IMG/VR virus record: IMGVR_UViG_3300020442_000011 | Coordinates: 48,001 to 112,000 of that record | Source: a virus | Length of the DNA stretch: 64,000 bases | Strand: one strand, 5' to 3' | Shown here: piece by piece, positions 10,926 to 48,034 of the stretch | Layout of the letters: each line of letters begins with the position of its first letter | Position numbering within the stretch: the stretch's first letter is position 1 | The notes under the pieces: model-generated | Told to the model about the DNA's origin: nothing | The model's input: only the letters and a program-made list of their open reading frames with translations | Databases searched by the model: none | Program-made: the position numbers and the translations under genes

Positions 10926-13034
10926 ATGGGTATCAACAAATCGCGCGAGTTACGCCCTGAACTCCTAGGGATCAACGTACTCGATCCATATTTCTCAACA
11001 TCCACTGCTGCCCGTAAAGCCATGATGGCTACCCATTTAGGTCAGGCACCAGTAGTAGAGGGATCAGAACCTAGAAAAATCTTCTCAGGGGCTGAGTTCC
11101 ACGCAGCTGAAGACGTGTTTGATATTCGGTTCCCGTGTCATGCGTCCATTATCGCAGTTGTTCGTAAATACCAGTCGGGTGGTATGGGTTACGGCGCAAT
11201 TCCAGAGAACCCAGTTACAACGATCATCTACAAAGATTATTACAGTAAAAACATCCGTGTCGGTGTTATCCATGTACCGAAGTATTTGAGTTTCCACCAG
11301 GATTTCGGTTATCCTCTGAAACTCAACCGAGAGGTTTGGGATCGGCTTGCACCCAAACAATTATTCGAAAAAGATACGGTGATCGCCACATCGCCCGCAG
11401 TTAAAGAAGATGGCTCTTATGGTCTAGGTGTTAATGCACCGACGATCTTCTTAACTGATCCAGGTACCATCGAAGATGGCATCGTCATGTCTGAATCGAT
11501 GTGTAAGAAAATGAGTCCTCGTGGTTATGGAACACTTGTCGGTAGTTGGGGCAAGAAAACATTCCCTCTAAACCTACATGGTGATTCTACCCATTACAAG
11601 CCCTTCCCTGACATTGGTGATATCATCCCGGCAGACGGTTTAGTGATGGCGTTTCGTGACATCGATCAGCGTCTGGGTGTGGCTGACATGACACCGCGTG
11701 CGACACGCACGGTGGATCACTCATATGACAAGCCTCTATGGGGGCGTCCTGGCGCAAGGGTGGTTGATGTTAAGGTTTATCATGACGATCGGCTAAACCC
11801 ATCTTTTACCCCGGTAGGTATGGATACGCACGCACGTAAGTATTATGACGGTCTTGCAACCTACTACCGTACGATTATGAAAATCTACCTCGACTTACAA
11901 AGAAGTTGGGGTAAGCATAAGCTGGAACTCACACCTGAGTTCGGTAGTCTCCTAGTAGAGGCCCAGACTCACTTACCTGTATCTCCCAGCGAGCGTAAGC
12001 TCACACGCATGAACCGTCTAGAGACTTTAGATGAATGGCGTGTCGAGATAACCTACGAATGGGTAATGCCTTTCAACGAAGGCTACAAACTGACGGACCT
12101 CTTTGGGGGCAAAGGAGTTAATTGTAAAACTCGTCCCGACCACGAAATGCCAAAAGACAAAAATGGTAATCGTGCAGATATTGTCATTTACGGTATTTCT
12201 ACAATCAACCGTACTAACCTAGGTCGTTGGTTTGAACAGTTTACCAACGCAGCGTTCCGTGATCTTGTTCAACGCATGCGGCGTGAGTGTGGCCTCGATC
12301 ACTTACGTACACCTACGTCTATTGAAGCGCAACGTGCCGTCAGTAACAAAGAATGGGTATCCATGGCGTTTAATCGCTTGCTCAAATTCTATTACATGAC
12401 AGTGCCGCTAATGGCCAAATCGATGGAGGAACATCCAAGTCCAGCTTGTCACCTTAAACACATCTTGATTGAAGGTGGTTTTCTCCATCACATGGCAGAT
12501 AACCCAATCAGCGAGATGGACCAGGTGAGAAACATCATGAAGAGTGAGTTCAAACCTCATTATGATAAAATCACCTTTTACAACAATTTTGGTGAGGAAG
12601 TCGAATCGGAACTCCCTGCACTGATCGGTGATATCTATTTCATCGCCCTCGAAAAGAATGGCGAGGATTATTCAGCAGCTGCTTCAGTTAAAGTTCAGCA
12701 CTTTGGTGTTCCTGCCAAACTAAGTCAGAACGACCGCAACACAACACCCGCACGTCAAACGTCAGTGCGGGGTATCGGTGAATCAGAAAGCCGTTCTCTA
12801 TGTTCCACCATTGGTCCAGAACCTACTATCGAAATCATGGACCAATCCAATAACCCCGAAGCACACCGTTTCGGTATCATGAATATCTTAACCCACCCAA
12901 CGCCTACTAACATCGAAAGACTTGTTGATCGTAACAAAGTTCCTTTCGGTGGTTCTCGACCAGTAAACCTGTTTAAACATATCCTTGCCTCGCGCGGTCT
13001 AAGATTTTTCTATAAACCGAATCAGGAAGATTGA
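10926..13034 (+). CDS. RNA polymerase beta subunit, C-terminal half (non-virion enzyme)
   Basis: A 702-residue homologue of the C-terminal part of bacterial beta. TIEDGIVMSES at about 181-191 corresponds to the FEDS region of beta. KLTDLFGGKG at 388-397, followed by KTRPDHEMPKDKNG, corresponds to the GRHGNKGV...DMPYDENG active-site region. The C-terminal part (TSVRGIGESESRSL) matches the terminal beta motif that contacts beta'. In phiKZ this is gp71-73. It has AGGAG upstream and is followed 3 bases later by the beta' C-half, as in phiKZ gp71-73/gp74. The phiKZ gene is known to carry an intron; this copy is uninterrupted. Confidence 0.92.
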   Translation: MGINKSRELRPELLGINVLDPYFSTSTAARKAMMATHLGQAPVVEGSEPRKIFSGAEFHAAEDVFDIRFPCHASIIAVVRKYQSGGMGYGAIPENPVTTIIYKDYYSKNIRVGVIHVPKYLSFHQDFGYPLKLNREVWDRLAPKQLFEKDTVIATSPAVKEDGSYGLGVNAPTIFLTDPGTIEDGIVMSESMCKKMSPRGYGTLVGSWGKKTFPLNLHGDSTHYKPFPDIGDIIPADGLVMAFRDIDQRLGVADMTPRATRTVDHSYDKPLWGRPGARVVDVKVYHDDRLNPSFTPVGMDTHARKYYDGLATYYRTIMKIYLDLQRSWGKHKLELTPEFGSLLVEAQTHLPVSPSERKLTRMNRLETLDEWRVEITYEWVMPFNEGYKLTDLFGGKGVNCKTRPDHEMPKDKNGNRADIVIYGISTINRTNLGRWFEQFTNAAFRDLVQRMRRECGLDHLRTPTSIEAQRAVSNKEWVSMAFNRLLKFYYMTVPLMAKSMEEHPSPACHLKHILIEGGFLHHMADNPISEMDQVRNIMKSEFKPHYDKITFYNNFGEEVESELPALIGDIYFIALEKNGEDYSAAASVKVQHFGVPAKLSQNDRNTTPARQTSVRGIGESESRSLCSTIGPEPTIEIMDQSNNPEAHRFGIMNILTHPTPTNIERLVDRNKVPFGGSRPVNLFKHILASRGLRFFYKPNQED

Positions 13035-13037
13035 TCG

Positions 13038-15032
13038 ATGATGTCACGTTACACCATGCGAGACTTGATCCACTTGTCTCCACAACAACTCTACCGCGAG
13101 TTACCCAAGGAAAAAGAAATCACCGTTGAGTTTGACGACGGTGAATTAATCACTCACACCAACATAACCATACTCAGCACATACATGTGCTTCCCACTCA
13201 CAAAGTTCCCCGATGTTCCTATTCTAAAAGAATATCATCTTGGGAATAACGTCCCGACAGGCGGGCTCATCAATAAGCGCCTGAATAGTGTTTTATGGGG
13301 TATCCATAAACATTCGGGGGAACAAGTCGACCCTGAATATCTCAGTAAGTTGGCGATTGTTTCAGTCAATAAACTATTCAATGACATCACGACATATGGC
13401 GCACCCAGTTTCTCGTCGATGTCGATGTTCGACCTTTATGAAATAATGGAACTTCCTGAGTTACAGGAAGCGCTCAGTGGGGTGGAACCCACTGAATTTT
13501 CGATCAACAAGAAAGTTTATCCTGTTGTTCAGAAAATCCTTAAAGACCCGGCAATCCTGCCGCATAACGCTATCATGAAATCGTCCCTGGCGGGCACATC
13601 TAAGAATGGTCAACTTTTACAAGTGTTTGGCCCCTTAGGTTTCCGTACAGATATCAACAAAGAGCTCTTCCGCTATCCAATAGTTAACCCGCTTGCTGAG
13701 GGCGTCGGAGATTATGAAGGTGCTCTAAAGGAATCGCGTACCGGTACAATCGCACTCCTTAACAATAAGGATCTGTTGCGTAAGACTGAATATTTCAATC
13801 GACAAACGCAATTGATTGCACAATACGTGATGAATCTACATCACTTTACTGATTGTGGTACTGACATCCGTCTTCCTTATCTGGTAACGGAAGATAACCT
13901 CGAGACGCTCAAGGGTAAATATTACCGTGTTGAACAAAATGGTGAAGACACATGGTTGAAGGGCGATGAAAAACATCTTATCAATCAAGTGATCTTCATC
14001 CGTTCTGTGTTGGGGTGTAAACATTCCGACCCGCAAGGTGTTTGCGGTATGTGTTATGGACGAATGCAGTTCTCCATTCCTTATCGCACTAACATCGGTA
14101 ATGTCAGTGCCGTAGTGGTGGGTGACAAAATAACATCGAGCGTATTGTCAACAAAACACCATGTGGCATCCTCACAGGTAGAACACTTTCATCTTGGTCC
14201 GCGTGAACTCGAGTTTATGCGGTATGGGGAACAAGAAGAAACGTTGTACCTCAGCTACAAAGTAGCTAAAGCGGATCGGGTGTATATGACGGTGTATGCT
14301 GACCAGGTACCTAACTTGGCCAACATTCTGATGGTACCGTCGTTAGATGAATTCCCAACCACATCGGTATCACAGCTCACCCAAGCTGCGTTTCAATACG
14401 AAAACAAGGAGGGCTTCCTTGTGGGTGACGTTGTTCAGACATCCCTGTACAACCGTCATGCGAGTTTCTCTAAGGAACTCTTGGCTCATATTCGAGAATA
14501 CAAATGGGAGATTGATGATGATGGTAATGTTCGCGTTGACCTCACTAATTTCGCACGTGATCGACCGCTACTTACGCTACCGTTTAAGAACGTCGACATG
14601 TATGATGTGATGGTAAAGATAAAATCTTTCCTTCACTCCGGCTCTGACGGTCAGAACAAAAAGTTAGCAGGGTATTCTAAGAATAAACGGGGTGAACAGA
14701 ACTTCCTGAAAAATTATGATAATCCTGTTGATGCACTCACTGTGTTCGCCAACATGCTAAATGAGAAGCTTTATGTGAACTTAGTTCACGTGGAAATTCT
14801 ATTATATGCAATGATGGTGCGTAAACGCGGTGAAGACTATCGTTTACCTAAACCAGGTGTTACTGGGCAATTTGACAAATATAACATCATCATGGCAAAG
14901 CGGTCTCTATCAGCCGCTATGGCATTCGAGAAGCAAGATAAGATCCTTTCTTCCGCAGATGTTCTGAGTCTATCGCCTCGTATCGACCATCCCTATGATA
15001 TTGTCGTCATGGGAGGTGACTACGCTAATTAG
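13038..15032 (+). CDS. RNA polymerase beta' subunit, C-terminal half (non-virion enzyme)
   Basis: A 664-residue homologue of C-terminal beta'. The four cysteines of the second zinc site are present: C273 (TDCGTD), C327, C336 and C339 (CKHSDPQGVCGMCYG). The segment from about 185 to 260 (NGQLLQVFGPLG, then EGVGDYEGALKESRTGT) aligns with the bridge-helix and trigger-loop region. phiKZ gp74 is the positional equivalent. GGAAG lies upstream of ATG 13038. Together with the beta' N-half, beta halves and gp68-like candidate it would form the non-virion polymerase that transcribes middle and late genes. Confidence 0.92.
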   Translation: MMSRYTMRDLIHLSPQQLYRELPKEKEITVEFDDGELITHTNITILSTYMCFPLTKFPDVPILKEYHLGNNVPTGGLINKRLNSVLWGIHKHSGEQVDPEYLSKLAIVSVNKLFNDITTYGAPSFSSMSMFDLYEIMELPELQEALSGVEPTEFSINKKVYPVVQKILKDPAILPHNAIMKSSLAGTSKNGQLLQVFGPLGFRTDINKELFRYPIVNPLAEGVGDYEGALKESRTGTIALLNNKDLLRKTEYFNRQTQLIAQYVMNLHHFTDCGTDIRLPYLVTEDNLETLKGKYYRVEQNGEDTWLKGDEKHLINQVIFIRSVLGCKHSDPQGVCGMCYGRMQFSIPYRTNIGNVSAVVVGDKITSSVLSTKHHVASSQVEHFHLGPRELEFMRYGEQEETLYLSYKVAKADRVYMTVYADQVPNLANILMVPSLDEFPTTSVSQLTQAAFQYENKEGFLVGDVVQTSLYNRHASFSKELLAHIREYKWEIDDDGNVRVDLTNFARDRPLLTLPFKNVDMYDVMVKIKSFLHSGSDGQNKKLAGYSKNKRGEQNFLKNYDNPVDALTVFANMLNEKLYVNLVHVEILLYAMMVRKRGEDYRLPKPGVTGQFDKYNIIMAKRSLSAAMAFEKQDKILSSADVLSLSPRIDHPYDIVVMGGDYAN

Positions 15033-15073: not shown

Positions 15074-16612
15074 ATGAACAATTTAAAGTTGGATGTTTAC
15101 TCACACGGGGTACGCCTACATGGCTACACCCGTAACCTCTTTGGTGAGATCGTTCATTTTTTGAGTCGTTTGGAACTAAAAGAGGATAAACGACTACCTC
15201 GTCACCAAGGTGGTGGTATGGTGACCGTGGTGAGAAAGAAGTTTTTTGGTATTTTGAATTCTAAGCGTGAGATATACATCCATCGACATCACCTAGAAGC
15301 ACTATTGACGTTTCTAAAGGGATGTGGTTTAACCGAACAAAATTTTATCATTGAATACATTGACCCACCTAAGGGTCAGCGTATAGAAGGTGTGGAAATA
15401 TTTGATCACTTTGTTGAGAGGGACTATCAAGGTATCCTGATACCCGAACTTGCTGAAGATGTACAACGATCACGTAAAGTGGATTTGGCCACGGGTTTGG
15501 GTAAAACGTTCTGTTCATTAAAAGCGTGTCTTCTTAGAGGTGAACGTTTCTCTGTAATGCTTGCCCCTAAATATTTCGGTCTATGGATCGGAGCATTAAA
15601 TGATACGTTCAAGACCTTTAAAGATGTACCAGGACAATACATCACTGTGTCTGGTGGTAATGAATTGCGTATGGTGATGCAGCAAGCACTGGACGGAACA
15701 CTCGAAGCAAAAGCCATTATCATTTCAAACACAACGTACCGTAACTATATCGAAGCCTATGAGCAATTCGGTGAGAATATCGTTGACCATGGTTATCTGG
15801 TTCCACCTCAGCGATTCCATGAGCTTCTGGGTATAGGTACGCAGATCAACGATGAATTTCATGAGGATTTAGGTTTAACCTTCAGGATAGACTGTTTTAC
15901 GAATATCAAGAAACAGCTCTATTTGTCCGCTACGCCGTTTAATGGTGATCGGTATGTCACAGATATGGTGGATGTCATGTTGCCTCCTGAGACGTACTGT
16001 ACAATCCCTGAGCCCCCTAAATACATCAACGTATTGGAACTTCTCTACCAAGACGATGTAGAAGCGCGTGATTACTTAACTCCCCAAAAGAATAGTTATA
16101 ATCATGCACGATACGAAAAGATGATGTTAAAGAAAAAACGCCGCCTCAACACGTATTTCAGCAAAGTTGCTAAGGTGGTTGATAAAGCATTTGTTAGTGA
16201 TTTTGAACCTGGTCAGAAGATGCTCATTCTGTGCGCGACAGTCGACTTCATTCAAGCATTGACAAAATATCTCAAGGTCCAATTCCCGAACGTCAAAATA
16301 GGACACTACGTTAGTGGTGTTTCTTACGACACGGTGAAAGCTCAGGACATCACCGTATCAACGATCAAGTCGGCTGGAACAGGGGTCGATATACGTAACC
16401 TTCGTGAAACCCTACTTTTACAGGCGGTAGGGTCGGATAAGGATAACATCCAAATCTTAGGACGTACACGTCCGTTAAAAGACTTCCCTGATGTCACACC
16501 GCGCCTTATCTACTTCACGTGTATTGACATCAGACAACACCGTAAATACGCTCAGAAGAAGAAAGAAACCTTCGCTGGTCGTATATTACATTCTCGCACG
16601 ATGCGCTTATAA
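15074..16612 (+). CDS. SF2 DNA/RNA helicase (UvsW-like)
   Basis: A 512-residue helicase. Motif I is TGLGKT (140-145), motif II DEFH (260-263), motif III SATPF (285-289), motif V region TGVDI (436-440) and motif VI QILGRTR (460-466). This is the order of superfamily 2 enzymes such as T4 UvsW. N-terminal residues 1-115 are family specific. It follows the polymerase subunits, matching the helicase after gp74 in phiKZ. Probable role: unwinding R-loops or branched DNA during replication and recombination. Confidence 0.9.
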   Translation: MNNLKLDVYSHGVRLHGYTRNLFGEIVHFLSRLELKEDKRLPRHQGGGMVTVVRKKFFGILNSKREIYIHRHHLEALLTFLKGCGLTEQNFIIEYIDPPKGQRIEGVEIFDHFVERDYQGILIPELAEDVQRSRKVDLATGLGKTFCSLKACLLRGERFSVMLAPKYFGLWIGALNDTFKTFKDVPGQYITVSGGNELRMVMQQALDGTLEAKAIIISNTTYRNYIEAYEQFGENIVDHGYLVPPQRFHELLGIGTQINDEFHEDLGLTFRIDCFTNIKKQLYLSATPFNGDRYVTDMVDVMLPPETYCTIPEPPKYINVLELLYQDDVEARDYLTPQKNSYNHARYEKMMLKKKRRLNTYFSKVAKVVDKAFVSDFEPGQKMLILCATVDFIQALTKYLKVQFPNVKIGHYVSGVSYDTVKAQDITVSTIKSAGTGVDIRNLRETLLLQAVGSDKDNIQILGRTRPLKDFPDVTPRLIYFTCIDIRQHRKYAQKKKETFAGRILHSRTMRL

Positions 16613-16629
16613 ACTGTTGGAGTTTCATC

Positions 16630-17076
16630 ATGGCTTTAAAGGTAGATCCCAGTAAAATGGAAAAGATTGTAGCATTGTTTTATGGTGCGCAATCAACTCG
16701 CGACAAAGTACCTGCAGGCGGCGCGCTTGATAAATTAACAATGGTGACGGCCACCCACGGTCGTTTGATGTTAGCGACAGAGGAGTTTCCCGTTGACTTC
16801 ATCATTCAGTCGTATGATCTTAAACCCAAAGAGGTATGTGATCAACGCAATGGTGAATTCATCCGTGAATTGGTGGATCACTTGGGTGCATCACATCTAT
16901 ACTCCGCTCTCACTGATGCCATGAAGAAGGATGGTTTCGTCATTGAGATTGTGGGTGACAAAGTCATTGCTAACCCTCTCAAGCAATCGTTTGGTGAAAC
17001 GGACGAGCAAGAACCGGCGCGTCCAGTAAGTAAAACATATTACGTGGAACATCACCCTGACGACGTGGTTGAATAA
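16630..17076 (+). CDS. Hypothetical protein, 148 aa
   Basis: Begins 17 bases after the helicase gene, preceded by GGAG. Soluble, with a helical centre and an acidic C-terminus (HHPDDVVE). No motif recognised. Last gene of the unit before a convergent terminator. Confidence 0.85.
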   Translation: MALKVDPSKMEKIVALFYGAQSTRDKVPAGGALDKLTMVTATHGRLMLATEEFPVDFIIQSYDLKPKEVCDQRNGEFIRELVDHLGASHLYSALTDAMKKDGFVIEIVGDKVIANPLKQSFGETDEQEPARPVSKTYYVEHHPDDVVE

Positions 17077-17086
17077 CGACATAAAA

Positions 17087-17112
17087 AGACCCTTCCCACA
17101 TGGGAAGGGTCT
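17087..17112. terminator. Bidirectional terminator between convergent units
   Basis: AGACCCTTCCC / GGGAAGGGTCT with a short loop, preceded by A-rich bases and followed by a long T-run from 17127. It serves the forward unit ending 17076 and the reverse unit ending 17133. Confidence 0.85.
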
Positions 17113-17132
17113 ATGTCCGACTAACCTTTTTT

Positions 17133-17669
17133 TTATTTTTTTGGCTTTGTTTGGTAGTGCTGGGCCTCGGCTTGAAGTTGACCTTCTAGTGATGACGTTG
17201 TCTTTTCGTATTGTCGGATATGAGCTTTAGCCATCTGGCAAAGCATCTCCGCATCATGGTACTCCATATCGAAGAAACCGTGAATGTCTAACCCAAAGTG
17301 TTCCTTTATCTTTAGATGATAGAACTTACGAAAATAGTCGAGCTTCAGGCTACCTTCATAGATGTCTTCCTTAGGATGATAGGCTACAAGCGCCAACGGG
17401 CGTTTCTGAGCCTTTTCAAGATCCGAGTGAGGAAAGATACCATATTGGTTCTGATAAGCCGTCTTGGTTAGTCTTTCGGCGGTTATAGAGGTCACAGCAG
17501 GAAGTGTCTTAGCTAGATTGATTAATTCGTTAACACCGCCCTTCGGTATGTACCCAAACGACAACATTGTGACGTGGCCGTTTGGATCACTACTGTCTAT
17601 AGAAAGACGTGTATACCTTGGGTCAGTGTTAACGTCGTTTAATCCCTGAGCTTCCGGCTGTGCAGCGTA
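17133..17669 (-). CDS. C-terminal extension read in the -1 frame after 17639-19525
   Basis: The frame is open from a stop just upstream of the T8 run down to 17133 and encodes about 178 residues beginning YAAQPEAQGLNDV. The first ATG is only at 17567, yet the 34 codons before it have normal phage-like composition (for example DVNTDPRYTRLSIDSSDP), and no ATG, GTG or TTG with a Shine-Dalgarno sequence exists there. The segment therefore looks like a continuation of the upstream gene through a -1 shift at T TTT TTT, giving a 797-residue fusion. The C-terminus is helical and Gln/Lys-rich. If no shift occurs, an internal product from 17567 (144 aa) is the alternative. Confidence 0.65.
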   Translation of the reverse strand, partial: YAAQPEAQGLNDVNTDPRYTRLSIDSSDPNGHVTMLSFGYIPKGGVNELINLAKTLPAVTSITAERLTKTAYQNQYGIFPHSDLEKAQKRPLALVAYHPKEDIYEGSLKLDYFRKFYHLKIKEHFGLDIHGFFDMEYHDAEMLCQMAKAHIRQYEKTTSSLEGQLQAEAQHYQTKPKK

Positions 17670-19525
17670 AAAAAAACCTTCATCATGTCAAGCGCAACAA
17701 GATGAGGGAAACGACTGTTAAACTTCTTCGCCACAGGTGTGTCACAGGAAGGACAATTAAACGAAGGAACTGCAATAATACCAAGCATGCAATCGTCAAT
17801 GAACTTCCCTACGTGTTCGAAGAATGTTTCAACGTTTTCGCTATCGGAGAACGTTGTCGAGAGTACCGATTCGATAAGTTCCCGATCACTACTCAATTCG
17901 ATCGGTTCGCTACTGTCTTCACTCTGCTCGTAAACCGCACTTACCCAGTGTGCGTATTGCTGCGCTGAAGTAGCTAACGCAAGTTCTTCGATGTAACGTG
18001 CACGAGACGAACCATGGGGTGGTTCGTTGTAGGCTTTGTTGGTCATCTCTTTAAGACTGTCGATCCAAGCATAACCTGCCAGCTCGTATTCATAGACACT
18101 GGGTACGCGGAGTTTTAGACCGATACCATCATCGAACCATACTGTGCGTTCAATACCACGCCGGTGTTCACTGCGATAAGTCTCCAGTTCTTCATTCGTG
18201 GATGGGCGGTCCCAATTACGTTGAGCCAACATGCGACGCTGCTTCTCAGATAGAGACGACATGTCATACCAAATGAGGTTATTGAGGTTCAACGTCTCTT
18301 TAACTTCATGCTGACACTTTTCAGGGTCTGCCACACAGGCATGTGTATACGGGAAACCACGTGGGTAAACAGTACACGCAACACCCCAGAAGAAAAGGTC
18401 TTGATCAACAAGCGCTACTTTCTCTTTGATGTCGGTCGGTGTGTTCCACTCACAGGTTGCCCCTGTTAAGAACTTGATACACCAATCAAACACCGTGGTT
18501 TTCAGTGTTTGGGACATATTAGAGAACGCAAGTCCTTTCGTCATACTACCGACAGAAAGTTTGAGTTGACCCAACTCATACTGGAGTTCTACCCAGTCAG
18601 CCAGTTTCGGCGGACGGAAACGCACCCAGAAACCTGAGAAAGGAAGCATGACATCGAACGGGACACCGCCGCCGCGCTTACGTTCGATATACATCGCGAT
18701 CTCATCTTTTGAATGAGAGCCCGGTAACATACGTTGAATCGGCGAACCAGTTCGTACAGTCTTACCTTCGTGTTGGTATTGTTGACGCCATTCGGCACCC
18801 TCACGACCAAGACTGCGTTGCCCATCGCCTGTCAATGCAGCGTGTTCATGACTATCGGCGATAGTACGTAGCCAAGGCGACCCATCATCTTTACCGACAG
18901 GTCGGCGTTGTTTCTTACGAATGTCTTGAATCCGCTTTTCATCGCGAGTGAGACGTTCGATGATACCTTGAGCAGCATCGAGGATCGCTTCGAGGTTCTG
19001 GTACGCCTCGCGTTCGATGGCGACCGGCGAGTCTTCCTCATCACCTTCTTTGAATGGGCGAGTGGTGGGGCGCTGCTCATGGAAGTCCATCGGTTTATTA
19101 ACCGGCAGCTCGGGAAAATCGATATCGGTCTTTTTAGCGAAAACAGTGATGTCAACAGGGGTTGCATTACCGTCATTGTCGAAACGACTTACTTGATCAA
19201 CATCACCGCCTTGATAGATATATTCGACAACTTTCGAAAAATCGTTATCGTCGAACAGTTTCTTACCCTCTTTATCAAGCACACGCCACGTGGCGTTCTC
19301 TTTTGCTTCCGTCATGAAAACAACGGCTTCGCCACGTTCCATCTCCCAGACAGTGTCATCTGGTAGAGTGACAACCACTAAGCCGACTTCAGCCGTTTCG
19401 TTCACTTTCTGTAGAATATCATCCAGTTCAGAAACAGAACTGGCTTCTTCAATGCTAATCTGACGACGTTCGTAGTCGTCCACTTCGAAGAGTTCAAAGT
19501 AGACAATATTCTGATCTTGCATCAT
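17639..19525 (-). CDS. Tail- or virion-assembly-type protein with zinc-like motif, 628 aa (frameshift donor)
   Basis: The N-terminal 200 residues are acidic and partly disordered. The middle contains two Cys-rich stretches (CVADPEKC). The C-terminus has CPSCDTPVAKKF followed by a helical segment, a layout reminiscent of phage baseplate or tail assembly factors. It overlaps the preceding gene by 4 bases (ATGA-type). The end is unusual: an 8-base T run lies 9 codons before the stop and permits a -1 shift into a long open frame. Frameshifts of this kind are typical of tail assembly chaperones; the assignment here is by analogy only. Confidence 0.75.
   Translation of the reverse strand: MMQDQNIVYFELFEVDDYERRQISIEEASSVSELDDILQKVNETAEVGLVVVTLPDDTVWEMERGEAVVFMTEAKENATWRVLDKEGKKLFDDNDFSKVVEYIYQGGDVDQVSRFDNDGNATPVDITVFAKKTDIDFPELPVNKPMDFHEQRPTTRPFKEGDEEDSPVAIEREAYQNLEAILDAAQGIIERLTRDEKRIQDIRKKQRRPVGKDDGSPWLRTIADSHEHAALTGDGQRSLGREGAEWRQQYQHEGKTVRTGSPIQRMLPGSHSKDEIAMYIERKRGGGVPFDVMLPFSGFWVRFRPPKLADWVELQYELGQLKLSVGSMTKGLAFSNMSQTLKTTVFDWCIKFLTGATCEWNTPTDIKEKVALVDQDLFFWGVACTVYPRGFPYTHACVADPEKCQHEVKETLNLNNLIWYDMSSLSEKQRRMLAQRNWDRPSTNEELETYRSEHRRGIERTVWFDDGIGLKLRVPSVYEYELAGYAWIDSLKEMTNKAYNEPPHGSSRARYIEELALATSAQQYAHWVSAVYEQSEDSSEPIELSSDRELIESVLSTTFSDSENVETFFEHVGKFIDDCMLGIIAVPSFNCPSCDTPVAKKFNSRFPHLVALDMMKVFFTLHSRKLRD
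17669..17676 (-). promoter_or_regulatory. Candidate programmed -1 frameshift site
   Basis: On the reverse strand the zero-frame reads AAG GTT TTT TTT ACG, containing the canonical slippery heptamer T TTT TTT. A -1 slip changes the next codon from ACG to TAC and opens a 178-codon frame; without a slip, translation ends 9 codons later. Alternatively the run is truly nine T and was undercalled, which would make one continuous gene. Confidence 0.6.
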
Positions 19526-20010
19526 TTCTTATTCTCCTCGAAGGTTTTGATTTCCATGAGTTCAGGAGCGTTTTCCTGAACTTCTTTAAATAGCTCGATA
19601 TGAAGGGAATTAATCTCTTTATCGTACTTTTCCATCATTTTGCTGTAACGCTCACTGATGCTGTACATTACAGGGTAATCCTTCGGAGCGGCACCGCCTT
19701 TCTTCCCTTTATGTAAGCTGTAGATATCCAGCAAGTCTTTTTGGAACTGACGGATACCGCCGATAAACTGACTGAGTTTGAGTTTGAACTCATCTGGGTT
19801 ATCTAATTTGCTGGAAATCTCATCCATGTTACTCAGAACAGGTAGCGTAAAGAAACTTGTCATGTAGCACTGCTGAAGAAGCTGTGAGAAAATAGTCTCA
19901 AGAACAACATAGCCTTCATCACCTTCGAGAATTTCCTTGGCAAGGATTTTATGTGTTTCCATCAGTTCATCGAAAGTGGGTGCTTGAACTTGTTCGTTAG
20001 CGGCGGTCAT
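19522..20010 (-). CDS. Hypothetical helical protein, 162 aa
   Basis: First gene of a reverse-strand pair; its stop overlaps the start of the 628-residue gene by 4 bases. Mostly alpha-helical, with a Lys/Gly stretch (KGKKGGAAPKD) near residue 110. Translational coupling implies a shared job with its neighbour, possibly tail or head assembly. GGAAAACC precedes the ATG. The divergent gap of about 110 bases to the gene at 20122 should hold promoters for both directions. Confidence 0.85.
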   Translation of the reverse strand: MTAANEQVQAPTFDELMETHKILAKEILEGDEGYVVLETIFSQLLQQCYMTSFFTLPVLSNMDEISSKLDNPDEFKLKLSQFIGGIRQFQKDLLDIYSLHKGKKGGAAPKDYPVMYSISERYSKMMEKYDKEINSLHIELFKEVQENAPELMEIKTFEENKK

Positions 20011-20121
20011 TATGGTTTTCCTTAGTGAATTGAGTTATACGACATAACGTGAGTATAATTAGTTTTTTATAACTACGACAGGTAATGATGTGTAATCTTA
20101 CTTCTTTGGGTGGGCTCCATT

Positions 20122-20976
20122 ATGTTAGATGAACTAAAACAATGTTTGCTTTTGTATACAACAGAAGAAGCAACGGAAACATTGCTTGATGCTTACCGTA
20201 TTCTGGAAACCATCGGGCTAACTGACCAAGACACGGAACTCCTTAACATCATGGGACTCGATAGCGAGGCTTCAGATAGTTATCTTCTTGTGGGTCGAAT
20301 CGAAGCGTGCTTAACGATCGCTGTTGGTGATCAGCTATCACAGTATGGTGTGACCCTGATTGATGGTACACCACTTAATGTCATGACAGAAATCCTACAA
20401 GCCGTAGGGACATTCGAGCGTTATCATATCCCTGAAGCTGTTCGAGATATCTTCTTGACAGACGAATTCGACAACGAAGAGAAGTTCGCCGAGTTCGTTT
20501 CATTGTTTAGTGCTCTCGAACCCATAGATGTCACGCATCATCTTGAGAACATCAAACCAGATACGCTCAAACGCATCAAGACGATCGCTGACGATGAACT
20601 GGCAAACATACCGAAGCCTGAGCTGCCTCTCCAAGAACTCAGAGAACGTGGACGTTTTATTAACCATATCGAGCGTAAGTCTCCCGAGCAACATTTAATG
20701 GTTGTTCGTAAACTGTCGGATTATGGTTTTCCGATGGACGTGGATGTCGATCTTGTCCTTGATGACTTGACAGACGCGCTTGATGCCATCCCTGATGACA
20801 CAGAACAGCTTGTTTATGAACTGCTAGCTGTGTCCGCCTACATCGATAGTGATTATCAAACGTTCTTCAGTGAATTCGTTGAAGATTACGCACACACCGA
20901 TGTGCTGGCGAATCGTTTAAAACGGTTAGCTAATACGTTCTTAACCGAACATGGGTATTCACATGTTAAAGCGTGA
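20122..20976 (+). CDS. Hypothetical acidic protein, 284 aa
   Basis: The frame is open from GTG 20110, but ATG 20122 is the likelier start. The product is strongly acidic and helical, with no recognised motif or membrane segment. Its 3' end overlaps the start of the following polymerase subunit by 26 bases (or 14 if that gene starts at 20963), so the two are probably coupled. Function unknown. Confidence 0.8.
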   Translation: MLDELKQCLLLYTTEEATETLLDAYRILETIGLTDQDTELLNIMGLDSEASDSYLLVGRIEACLTIAVGDQLSQYGVTLIDGTPLNVMTEILQAVGTFERYHIPEAVRDIFLTDEFDNEEKFAEFVSLFSALEPIDVTHHLENIKPDTLKRIKTIADDELANIPKPELPLQELRERGRFINHIERKSPEQHLMVVRKLSDYGFPMDVDVDLVLDDLTDALDAIPDDTEQLVYELLAVSAYIDSDYQTFFSEFVEDYAHTDVLANRLKRLANTFLTEHGYSHVKA

Positions 20977-25584: not shown

Positions 25585-26820
25585 TTAGCGTAAATATTGC
25601 TGTAACTTTGAATGTGTTACGAACAGATCATTATTGAGAAAAGTCTCAAGTTGTCGTTCAAGACGCAAGTGTTGTTGATTTCTACGTCGCTTGGGACTCA
25701 AGAACATACCTACTATTTCCACCGTGATAGGTATTTCATAGAGGGGTTTCATTAATTTATCGAAAGCTTCGATATCGTCAAGTAATTGTTTCTTGCGTTT
25801 CGGGTCTTTAACATGCGTTAACTGGGCGATTGTATCGCGTCGCATCTTTCTTGCTCGCTCAACTGGGTTATCATAAGAAGAATTGATATCCGAATGTTTC
25901 ATGAATTGACACGACACCCAACTAATCGTTGCGATGTTTATTCCAGGTAACAAAAGAGTAGGGATAACTGCGACCGATCTCAACCACTCGATACGGCGAC
26001 TCTTTTGTGTGCCTGATATTCTAGTGACTGCTCTTGCTAATGGTAATCCAAACCCAAGACGACTAGCGAACCAATCAGCCAGTTGTTCATCGCGTTTTAA
26101 GGAGTTGGCGTCTGATACCGAACTAATCCATCCGCGACCTGTATCGGTGTATAATCCGACGATTGCCTTTCTAACCGTGGTAACAGAAGGGTCTTTTTTT
26201 ATTTCTTGGGCGGTTTCTTTATCGACGTTATCTGTCAGTTGTTTGAGTGTCATTCCTTTTACAGAATACGTATCGGCTCGTGTTCCCAACATTACCTCAA
26301 CACCTTCCTGAAGGTAATAGGACATCCAGACATAATCACCAATCGTAGCAAACGCCCAAAAGAGATGACCAACTTCATGGAGGATCATAGCGGTGAATTC
26401 ATCATCATCCCAAAAGTTCATCGCGCTATCGCCAATGATTAAATAGGCGGGTATCTCAGTGAAGGTTCCTTCCACCTGCACTTTGGTGAGATCAACCGAA
26501 CCTTTAACGTATTTTAAGATGGCTGGGTCTTTTTGGAAGAGAGGAGTCCTAACGACAGGGTTCTTATTGGTGGAGTTGTGATTACCTGCAATATTGACCG
26601 TCCCCGCTGAAAAATTAAAACTATCCTGACGTAGACCAACAGACACCTTTATTTTAGTATTCCGTCGGATTATTTCCTGAATATCAGCAAGGAAATCTCT
26701 TGTTGATAATGTGTTGTTATCCTTATCAACATATGCTTTTTTAACACGGCTATAAACTTCAGTCGCTAGTTTTGATTTATGGTTGACGTTGATCTGCTCA
26801 ACAGACACCGTATTGTTCAT
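25585..26820 (-). CDS. Zincin-type metalloprotease-like protein, 411 aa
   Basis: Contains HEVGH at about 148-152, the HExxH zinc-binding catalytic motif, preceded by hydrophobic residues (FTAMIL). Downstream, RDEQLADWFASRLG at about 241-254 could supply the third glutamate ligand, as in gluzincin-type enzymes. A hydrophobic stretch near 280-300 (VIPTLLLPGINIATI) may be a membrane segment. The start at ATG 26820 is chosen because AGGTG lies 6 bases upstream; the frame runs on to 26940 but would overlap the divergent polymerase gene. Possible roles are virion maturation, lysis or a host-directed protease. Family not assigned. Confidence 0.75.
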   Translation of the reverse strand: MNNTVSVEQINVNHKSKLATEVYSRVKKAYVDKDNNTLSTRDFLADIQEIIRRNTKIKVSVGLRQDSFNFSAGTVNIAGNHNSTNKNPVVRTPLFQKDPAILKYVKGSVDLTKVQVEGTFTEIPAYLIIGDSAMNFWDDDEFTAMILHEVGHLFWAFATIGDYVWMSYYLQEGVEVMLGTRADTYSVKGMTLKQLTDNVDKETAQEIKKDPSVTTVRKAIVGLYTDTGRGWISSVSDANSLKRDEQLADWFASRLGFGLPLARAVTRISGTQKSRRIEWLRSVAVIPTLLLPGINIATISWVSCQFMKHSDINSSYDNPVERARKMRRDTIAQLTHVKDPKRKKQLLDDIEAFDKLMKPLYEIPITVEIVGMFLSPKRRRNQQHLRLERQLETFLNNDLFVTHSKLQQYLR

Positions 26821-26902
26821 GTGGCACCTAGACGGGTAAGGGTAGTCATAGGATAGGTGGAATTTACCTGAAGCCTTTATGTTGTAGGAAGAGGAGTTAC
26901 AC

Positions 26903-28702
26903 ATGACCGACAAACCTAAACTCGTTGGTATCGAAGCCAAACATATTACTTATGTCCCCGATCAGAACGGGGGTAATCATGATGCTTTGTTCATTAAAGA
27001 AGTTGGACATTTCAGTGATGGTAGTAAACGACCGCGTTTAAAACGGATTGATGATTATAAACGCCCCTACTACGTCACTATGCCAGGTAAGCAAGTTCAC
27101 AAGGATAAACGCGATTATGAACTTGCTTCCAACCTCCGTAAGTTTTCATCGACACAAGTTGAACTAGCACGTAACATAGCTCGTTCTCTCAATGATTGGT
27201 CTGGTGGTCCTAATCCACGACTAAGACAGCTTTCTAGAAGTCCATACTTGTATGGATCGGATGTTACACCCCCTACCTTAGTTAAAGCAGAATACCGCGA
27301 GAAATGGCCGGGTTTGTTTAGCTTTAACAAAGTGGCAGCTGGTGATACCGAGACTAACGTTTTTAGTGATGATCAAGAGATCATCCTTATGTCTGTCACC
27401 TATAAAAGTAAAGCGGCTCTTTTCTACTTAAAGAGTTTCGTGGATGGCGAAGAAAACGTTATTGAGCGCACGCATGAATTAGCCAAGCGTGAAATTGGCG
27501 ATGTTCTCAAGGAACGAAACATAGACCTTGAGGTCATGATCTGTGATACGCCAGGTACCATCGTCAAAGAAGCGTTATCACGACTCCATGCATGGAAACC
27601 CGATTTCTTCACTTTCTGGAACATGGACTTCGATATCACAAAAATGATGGAGGCTATGGAACGTGAAGGAATTGATCCGGCAGATTTATTCTCCGATCCT
27701 TCCGTACCGCCAAATTTCCGTTATTTTGAGTATAAGAAAGGTAACACGCAAAAAGTGACGGCCTCAGGCAAGACGATGTCTATTGCTATCGAGGATCGTT
27801 GGAACTGGGTGACGCACCCAGCGATGTGGCAAATGGTCGACAGTATGCCAATCTACCGCATCCTTCGTGTGGCTGATGGTAAAGATTCGTCCTATGCGTT
27901 GGATTATATTCTTGATAAAGAGGGCCTCGCTAAGAAGCTTAAGATCGTTGACCTTAAGAATGCCAGTGGATTACGCTGGCACGAAATCATGCAAGAGAAA
28001 TACAAAATCGAATACGGGGTGTACAACTTATTCGATAGTATCGCTCTTGAACTCTTAGACGAAAAGACGAATGATCTTGGATCAAACATCAGTCTTCATT
28101 CTAAGAACTCAGATTACAAGAATTTCAACTCTCAACCAAAACGTCTATGCGACGATATGCATTTCTGGCATTTACGCCAAGAGATTCCAGAGGTCATTGG
28201 TTCTTCTTCAGATCAGGCGGAAGATGAACTCGATAAGTTTGTTATCGGACATTCGGATTGGGTAGTTACATTACCGTCTTACATGGCATCACCCACCGGT
28301 ATCAAGTGCGTTAAGGATTACCCTGACTATTCTACCATGATCTTCGTCCACGTATCTGACTTAGACGTGGTATCGACGTATCCCAATGTTTCTCAGCTGC
28401 TCAATATTTCACGTAAAACGTGTGTATTTGAATTCTCACGGATGAAGGGAATAAGCGAACACCACCGTCGTGAAGTAGGGGTCAATCTAACGGGTGGACG
28501 TGTTAATGCTGTTGAGATAGGTCAGAAGATTTTAGGTATGCCAGAAATGGATGAACTAGTCAGTGAATTCTGCCAGGAAAACGGAATAGCAGCACCACTA
28601 GTGGATAGTCGTTACATTGTAGCTGCACCCCTCGAAATGAAACACCCCGAAGAAGAGTCAGTACCTGATCAAACGATGTTGGATGACGTCGTTACCCATT
28701 AG
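26903..28702 (+). CDS. Family B DNA polymerase, exonuclease domain and motif A only
   Basis: A 599-residue protein. The three 3'-5' exonuclease motifs are present: Exo I DTE (148-150), Exo II FWNMDFD (238-244) and Exo III YNLFD (374-378). Polymerase motif A follows as DVVSTYP (488-494), with D488 a metal ligand. Motif B (KxxxNxxYG) and motif C (DTD) were not found here or in the following frames. Either the palm continues on a separate gene outside the window or this protein is truncated. GGAAGAGGAG precedes ATG. After the TAG at 28700-28702 the same frame continues for 126 codons as a different conserved domain. Confidence 0.85.
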   Translation: MTDKPKLVGIEAKHITYVPDQNGGNHDALFIKEVGHFSDGSKRPRLKRIDDYKRPYYVTMPGKQVHKDKRDYELASNLRKFSSTQVELARNIARSLNDWSGGPNPRLRQLSRSPYLYGSDVTPPTLVKAEYREKWPGLFSFNKVAAGDTETNVFSDDQEIILMSVTYKSKAALFYLKSFVDGEENVIERTHELAKREIGDVLKERNIDLEVMICDTPGTIVKEALSRLHAWKPDFFTFWNMDFDITKMMEAMEREGIDPADLFSDPSVPPNFRYFEYKKGNTQKVTASGKTMSIAIEDRWNWVTHPAMWQMVDSMPIYRILRVADGKDSSYALDYILDKEGLAKKLKIVDLKNASGLRWHEIMQEKYKIEYGVYNLFDSIALELLDEKTNDLGSNISLHSKNSDYKNFNSQPKRLCDDMHFWHLRQEIPEVIGSSSDQAEDELDKFVIGHSDWVVTLPSYMASPTGIKCVKDYPDYSTMIFVHVSDLDVVSTYPNVSQLLNISRKTCVFEFSRMKGISEHHRREVGVNLTGGRVNAVEIGQKILGMPEMDELVSEFCQENGIAAPLVDSRYIVAAPLEMKHPEEESVPDQTMLDDVVTH

Positions 28703-47602: not shown

Positions 47603-48034
47603 ATGCGTTATTTTAAGTTTACCCATGATGCTCATGAGCTTAACAGTAGCATCCTATTTTCGTTGATGATCCAGGGTCAGCCAAATGGCCTTAACGATCT
47701 CAATGAACCATATCACCTCCAGCTGAACAATACGGTGTACACCATCATCCCGATGGATAATCCGATGTCTAAACGACATTCCTTCACGCAGTTCGGTCCC
47801 TATGTTGATGCCCACTATCATGATGGTAGTTTGATCGATCAAGAGGACATCAATAACGATGTCCTGGCCGCATTAACATTGCTGACAGGGAGGTGCAACT
47901 GGGTGGTGAATGGTGAGTTATGGAAACTACGCAGTCGCCGAGATGAATTCTTCAATGTGATGAGCGAAGTGAATACCGTGTTGACTTTCATTTCAGCTGT
48001 ACTTCTCATTACGTATCTCAAAACACGTAAATAA
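47603..48034 (+). CDS. Tail-anchored early membrane protein, 143 aa (paralogue 2)
   Basis: Starts 3 bases after paralogue 1. Same design: soluble domain, then C-terminal membrane segment (VLTFISAVLLITYL) and a short basic tail KTRK. Sequence identity with paralogue 1 is limited to several blocks, so the duplication is old or the pair diverged fast. It ends at a hairpin. Confidence 0.8.
   Translation: MRYFKFTHDAHELNSSILFSLMIQGQPNGLNDLNEPYHLQLNNTVYTIIPMDNPMSKRHSFTQFGPYVDAHYHDGSLIDQEDINNDVLAALTLLTGRCNWVVNGELWKLRSRRDEFFNVMSEVNTVLTFISAVLLITYLKTRK

Follow-up and report, generated by a model that had tools for sequence, protein, structure and literature searches.

Introduction

The lambda-type -1 frameshift, by which a tail assembly chaperone (TAC) gene yields a minor long form beside the short one, is reported to be widely conserved among long-tailed phages except T4 (PMC5009743). 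For T4, a review names gp26 and gp51 as hub assembly chaperones (PMC3004832); they come from separate genes on opposite strands, and gp51 resembles gp26 with a C-terminal part added. In Pseudomonas phage Adele (Vandenendeviridae) and in the Andersonviridae an invariant poly-T (GTTTTT) lies near the end of the short form (TAC-N), the -1 frame is open in all alleles and the extension is usually annotated as a separate hypothetical gene (PMC12846349, which cites a 2022 paper on T4-like TACs by Vladimirov, Gautam and Davidson). Here we consider the end of a gene of the phiKZ gp77 family on the minus strand of a 64,000-nucleotide stretch of viral DNA (the window: positions 48,001 to 112,000 of IMG/VR record IMGVR_UViG_3300020442_000011, a record 112,000 bases long). 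A short and a long TAC produced by programmed -1 frameshifting is the best reading of this locus (probability about 0.8); the frameshifting is strongly supported by sequence comparison, and the chaperone role is suggested by a predicted fold and by analogy.

Lambda gpG has about 140 amino acids and a slip site that differs from TTT TTY, whereas the short form described here has 476-720 amino acids (26 of 28 genes with a start set; KpGz_1 and PhiEaH1 were left out). Adele and its relatives, for their part, are not giant phages. With lambda gpG/gpGT the locus would share a minor long form that arises through a -1 shift late in the gene (PMC5009743), and with Adele, by description, a poly-T -1 site at the end of TAC-N and an extension annotated apart; a difference is that in Adele the tape measure gene directly follows the TAC region (PMC12846349). 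No description of a frameshift in phiKZ gp77 or its relatives was found in the open-access literature searched. Frameshifted TAC genes are a well-known kind, and what seems to be unrecorded is their occurrence in the phiKZ-like group, with an unusually large short form.

The gene end and its -1 frame

The frame-0 gene, the proposed TAC-N, occupies 17639..19525 on the minus strand and encodes 628 amino acids. Eight A at 17669-17676 of the plus strand correspond to the T run near its end, where the minus strand reads ATG ATG AAG GTT TTT TTT ACG CTG CAC AGC CGG AAG CTC AGG GAT TAA. The slippery heptamer T TTT TTT (17669..17675, minus strand) lies inside this run and in phase, conforming to the X XXY YYZ pattern. 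When the last TTT is read in the -1 frame the protein continues as FYAAQPEAQ... for 179 codons (F plus 178) to a stop codon at 17135-17133, and this extension, the proposed TAC-C domain, spans 17133..17672 on the minus strand. The predicted fusion has 619 + 178 = 797 residues. The first-pass annotation of this DNA had described a 628-codon frame that stops nine codons past an eight-T run, a -1 frame open for 178 codons and a 797-residue fusion, all of which is borne out by the minus-strand sequence and the recomputed lengths. It was also right that the first 34 codons of the -1 frame hold no start codon, the first ATG, GTG or TTG coming 35 codons after the slip codon.

Both window proteins belong to families of unknown function, the frame-0 protein to PHROG 4585 (E 7e-116) and the extension to PHROG 12109 (E 1.1e-32; alignments A1 and A4). 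Searches by tblastn gave hits in 210 phage records for the frame-0 protein and in 74 for the extension, all below 60% identity; the records listed are large phages of 197-323 kb, including phiKZ, PhiPA3, 201phi2-1, Noxifer, Psa21 and phages of Erwinia, Salmonella, Serratia and Vibrio, among others. A scan of viral contigs with the single window protein gave no relative. In Pfam neither window part had a match, and 26 family members gave only scattered weak matches (best E 0.047).

Conservation among phiKZ-like phages

The sequence set comprised the window, 27 named phages and 62 IMG/VR loci. These 90 sequences were reduced to 72 by removing 18 near-duplicates, recognised by shared 12-mers, as some IMG/VR loci are copies of named phages. 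The IMG/VR scan, made with alignment A3, had returned 63 loci, one of which was left out because the contig end cuts the gene before its stop. SPN3US and pTD1 were checked apart and stand outside the 72.

A slip site followed by an open -1 frame is present in the window and in all 27 named phages. The codons before the stop are TTT TTT or TTT TTC, SNUABM_54 having TTT TTG and pVa-21 CTT TTT. Beyond the frame-0 stop the -1 frame remains open for 113-168 codons, the exception being RVTF4 with 48. All 62 IMG/VR loci in which the gene end is complete have the same site and an extension that reaches 114-164 codons past the stop, and SPN3US (gp39/gp40) and the distant pTD1 likewise have site and extension. 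A single fused frame occurred in none of the 27 named phages, SPN3US, pTD1 or the 62 IMG/VR loci. The first-pass annotation had proposed that relatives be checked for the T run and the downstream frame, and its programmed -1 frameshift is supported by the outcome: slippery codons and -1 frame are kept in independently sequenced phages, the frame being shortened in RVTF4 only.

Past the frame-0 stop the -1 frame has a median length of 150 codons in the 72 relatives and is at least 113 codons long in 89 of the 90 sequences, while only 0.5% of shuffles of the same stretches (n=3,600) stay open for 100 codons; the impression that the frame is more open than chance would allow thus holds. RVTF4 (PQ015378.1) alone among the 90 sequences has a short extension: compared with D6, it carries a small indel early in the extension, which ends after 59 codons with the site kept; this is either a sequencing error or a real mutation.

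The relatives also settle the rival explanation offered at first, that a homopolymer error in the run of eight T had split one unbroken gene. The T run has 5 T in 6, 6 in 21, 7 in 26, 8 in 17 and 9 in 2 of the 72 sequences, and the same layout is seen in all 90, GenBank genomes and runs of five T included. A sequencing error is refuted by independently sequenced relatives that share the arrangement, and we give it practically no weight.

Codon choice at the slip site

Both phenylalanines (Phe) of the slip site are invariant or nearly so in the protein alignments. In the first position of the slip site TTT stands in 70 of the 72 non-redundant cases and CTT in two; in the second position TTT stands in 43, TTC in 28 and TTG in one. 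The script chose the slip site nearest to the stop, and one of the two CTT cases, the IMG/VR locus L064, which was scored as CTT TTT for this reason, has a regular T TTT TTC three codons before the scripted site. A constraint on the Phe-Phe pair of the protein is insufficient to explain this choice, because TTT makes up only 30% of the Phe codons in these genes (385 of 1,283). Among 42 other Phe-Phe pairs TTT TTT does not occur and TTT TTC occurs once; in-phase TTT TT[TCG] is found elsewhere twice in 37,638 other codons, and T runs of six or more once in 112,554 nt. The log10 probability computed along with these counts, -43.8, overstates the evidence since the relatives are treated as independent.

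The comparison shows the slip codons, their phase, the -1 frame and the protein encoded in it to be under selection across the phiKZ-like jumbo phages, as far as sequence can tell.

Separate genes or one frameshifted gene

The annotation of these phages suggests another explanation, namely two separate genes, the downstream part having its own start or being reached by reinitiation near the frame-0 stop. Two coding sequences are entered in 25 of the 27 GenBank phage records, with the downstream one alone in PhiEaH1, no annotation in KpGz_1 and a joined coding sequence in none. In 24 of the 72 sequences a start codon lies within 30 nt of the frame-0 stop, and in seven the -1 frame has a start 13-86 codons upstream of the slip site; these could singly use another route. 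Against separate genes, the -1 protein is homologous from the slip codon on, its first residue being F and its second mostly Y, R or H, whereas among the 72 a start codon comes only 9-149 codons after the slip. In phiKZ, where the two parts are annotated as PHIKZ077 and PHIKZ076.4, the latter beginning 86 codons in, no ATG, GTG or TTG occurs for 86 codons after the slip, and in the IMG/VR locus L073 none occurs for 102, yet the protein aligns from the slip codon. In fifteen of the 72, the open part contains no start ahead of the slip site, and the first 50 codons or more after it are also free of one. A separate gene is no explanation for phiKZ, which lacks a start codon over this distance, and the separate-gene model leaves the TTT codons unexplained.

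As judged from these reading frames, the extension cannot in general be made from its own start. Independent genes or reinitiation were rejected as a general explanation on account of the homology from the slip codon and the late starts, and are extremely improbable. The first-pass annotation would have given up its proposal for relatives that encode the two parts as separate genes with normal starts; such relatives exist in annotation, but the homology precedes any start in many of them. The extension domain is spread over at least phrog_12109, 7580, 13274, 34704, 19747 and 24181, a scatter that is probably an effect of annotation from differing internal starts.

Ribosomal or transcriptional slippage

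A shift of frame could also arise in transcription, if the phage or host RNA polymerase added or dropped U in the run and ordinary translation followed. Such slippage would suit the window's run of 8 T and the runs of 8-9 T in 19 of the 72, as well as the two large RNA polymerase subunit genes that the window itself encodes. Polymerase slippage requires length and not phase, however, and it is the length that varies (5 T in 6 of 72, 6 T in 21 of 72) and the phase that is kept (TTT first in 70 of 72). Ribosomal slippage is favoured because run length ranges over 5-9 while the codon phase is constant, and a transcriptional origin is very improbable. Both the ribosomal nature of the shift and its efficiency are inferred. 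An Rfam scan of 16500-20500 gave no match.

A predicted T4-like fold for the frame-0 protein

The AlphaFold2 model of the frame-0 protein has a predicted local distance difference test score (pLDDT) of 81.7 and a predicted template modelling score (pTM) of 0.75, with a poorly predicted N-terminus. Residues 1-92 (19525-19250 in the window) are absent from ten close relatives in alignment A3, and residues 75-129 gave a very weak GYF-domain-like match (Z about 2). BFVD was searched with this model by Foldseek, and 50 of 107 matches, many of them unnamed, were listed; the top ones are proteins of related phages, followed by smaller proteins. These include the 'Baseplate hub assembly chaperone' of Acidovorax phage ACP17 (E 7e-5), two entries named 'Baseplate hub assembly protein, bacteriophage T4-like' (E 5.6e-4 and 8.2e-4), several 'Baseplate protein' entries and the 'Baseplate hub subunit' of Bacillus phage SP-15 (E 1.5e-3), all with probability 1.00. 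Target template modelling scores to the proteins named T4-like hub assembly chaperone or protein are 0.44-0.57, and 'Tail assembly chaperone' entries appear only at E >1 among the matches listed, where T4's own gp26 and gp51 are absent from the named ones. The predicted fold of part of the frame-0 protein therefore appears to be shared with T4-type hub assembly chaperones, the matched query ranges not being given in the rows, and the tail-assembly-chaperone analogy drawn in the first-pass annotation gains support from it. A second structural aligner run against the PDB was uninformative (best Z 4.6). Myoviridae sp. ctLnO19 has two BFVD entries (A0A8S5P0M5 and A0A8S5NZW6), one resembling the frame-0 model (E 7e-28) and the other showing a weak resemblance to the extension model (E 0.19), and this virus may have the same frameshift.

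PHROG 150, labelled 'baseplate hub', is matched by both T4 gp26 and T4 gp51, which are similar to one another (BLASTP E 3e-6). The window protein matched PHROG 150 with E 0.046 and was the only one of 26 family members to do so. By eye, gp26 ends CPEC...KEFFELL and the frame-0 protein has CPSC...KVFFTL just before its end, so that both carry CxxC and then FF near the C-terminus. The CPSC of the window (C591-x-x-C594; 17744..17755, minus strand), shortly before the slip site, is a probable zinc site, and C591 and C594 are present in at least 90% of alignment rows. The sequence similarity of gp26 and gp51 to the frame-0 protein is weak and not significant; the predicted fold would link giant-phage tail assembly to that of T4, and sequence methods do not confirm the link.

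The extension is a confidently predicted helical domain (AlphaFold2 mean pLDDT 92, pTM 0.73), mostly helices with a long C-terminal helix at 138-175. Its named BFVD matches with E <0.01 are from Psa21, Phabio, RP12, MadMel, Eowyn and Goslar, which are large phages; the other rows are unnamed. Foldseek against the PDB gave no E below 5 for the extension, and the second aligner was again uninformative (best Z 4.8).

Weighing the chaperone reading

The gene architecture suits a predicted short form and a predicted long form with a C-terminal domain, and the following course may be proposed. Most ribosomes on the gp77-like gene would end at the frame-0 stop and give the short form, while a fraction would slip back one base on TTT TTY (T TTT TTT in the window), nine codons before the stop, and go on to make a long form, in which about 150-180 further residues form a helical domain. 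The two products would correspond to TAC-N and TAC-NC and be hub chaperones of the same type as T4 gp26/gp51. If they behave as lambda gpG/gpGT do, the tape-measure protein might be coated by abundant short and scarce long molecules, tail-tube or hub subunits might be recruited through the extension, and neither form would stay in the finished tail.

It is also conceivable that the frameshift is real and its products are structural baseplate or hub components instead of chaperones. The 'Baseplate protein' and 'Baseplate hub subunit' entries among the BFVD matches, the name of PHROG 150 and the annotation of the KPN8 gene as 'putative baseplate protein' all fit this view, as do genetic studies, cited in PMC3004832, by which the T4 hub contains gp26. 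The record of 201phi2-1 speaks the other way, since the neighbouring gp138 and gp139 are noted as 'identified using mass spectrometry' and gp137, gp136 and gp135 are without the note, which hints weakly that the latter are absent from virions. In the lambda tail chaperones, moreover, a late -1 shift likewise gives rise to a minor long form (PMC5009743). We regard structural products as unlikely and retain a frameshifted chaperone pair as the preferred interpretation.

A number of observations weigh against this interpretation, among them the start codons near the frame-0 stop or upstream of the slip site and the interrupted extension frame of RVTF4 described above. A T precedes the slip codons in 52 of the 72, an A in 10, a G in 9 and a C in 1, giving T TTT TT[TCG] in 52, A or G before TTT TTY in 18 and CTT TTT as scripted in 2, and tandem re-pairing is consequently imperfect in the 20 with a base other than T. 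Stimulators of frameshifting were not evident: in the 60 nt downstream, nested folds, the class of structure covered (pseudoknots were not), had a mean z of -0.51 against shuffles at the site and of -0.46 to -0.61 at three controls; the window site folds worse than its own shuffles (z +1.75); and Shine-Dalgarno-like sequences occurred in 3 of 72 compared with 3.4% in the control, none beyond background. The hhalign probabilities with T4 gp26 and gp51 did not exceed 20% (single-comparison E about 0.001), and in HMMER these two proteins scored no better than shuffled sequences. No known chaperone is among the matches listed for the extension. Finally, the SPN3US gene is gp39 and the tape measure gp239 (PMC5694885), far apart by number, a difference from lambda and unlike the usual TAC layout.

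Taking these points into the picture, we are inclined to view the TACs of phiKZ-like jumbo phages, of which no description was found in the open-access literature searched, as an enlarged T4-type hub chaperone. Its long form would arise by a -1 shift without an evident nested hairpin or Shine-Dalgarno stimulator, with imperfect P-site re-pairing (N TTT TTY) tolerated and, in SPN3US, with the gene far from the tape measure, so that the short and long pair made from two genes in T4 would be made by frameshifting across the whole group. The phiKZ-like jumbo phages, a group that includes nucleus-forming phages, thereby gain a candidate tail assembly chaperone. An annotation error that recurs in the records examined is corrected at the same time, as the domain of about 150-180 residues has been entered as a separate gene and usually shortened to an internal start. 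With TTT TTY constant and the preceding base variable, the collection of about 70 natural sites is useful for studying the need for P-site re-pairing in -1 shifts.

Neighbouring features

The frame-0 gene is preceded on the minus strand by an overlapping gene at 19522..20010 (PHROG 14050, E 2e-18), whose stop codon overlaps the frame-0 ATG; the two are probably in one transcript. This gene stands in place of phiKZ gp78, and a small gene precedes gp77 in phiKZ, PhiPA3 and 201phi2-1. After the extension lies an intrinsic-terminator-like palindromic hairpin (17087..17112, minus strand) of 11 pairs with a loop of 4, followed by a T-rich tail, TTTTATG; it was recognised by consensus match only and, placed between convergent genes, is the likely terminator of the minus-strand genes. 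The RNA polymerase genes mentioned above are two large adjacent plus-strand genes (10926-13034 and 13038-15032) of PHROG beta-subunit families; phiKZ-like phages that encode a multi-subunit RNA polymerase of their own have such genes too. An open reading frame at 25585-26940 of the minus strand, with an HEVGH motif, looks like a zinc metalloprotease.
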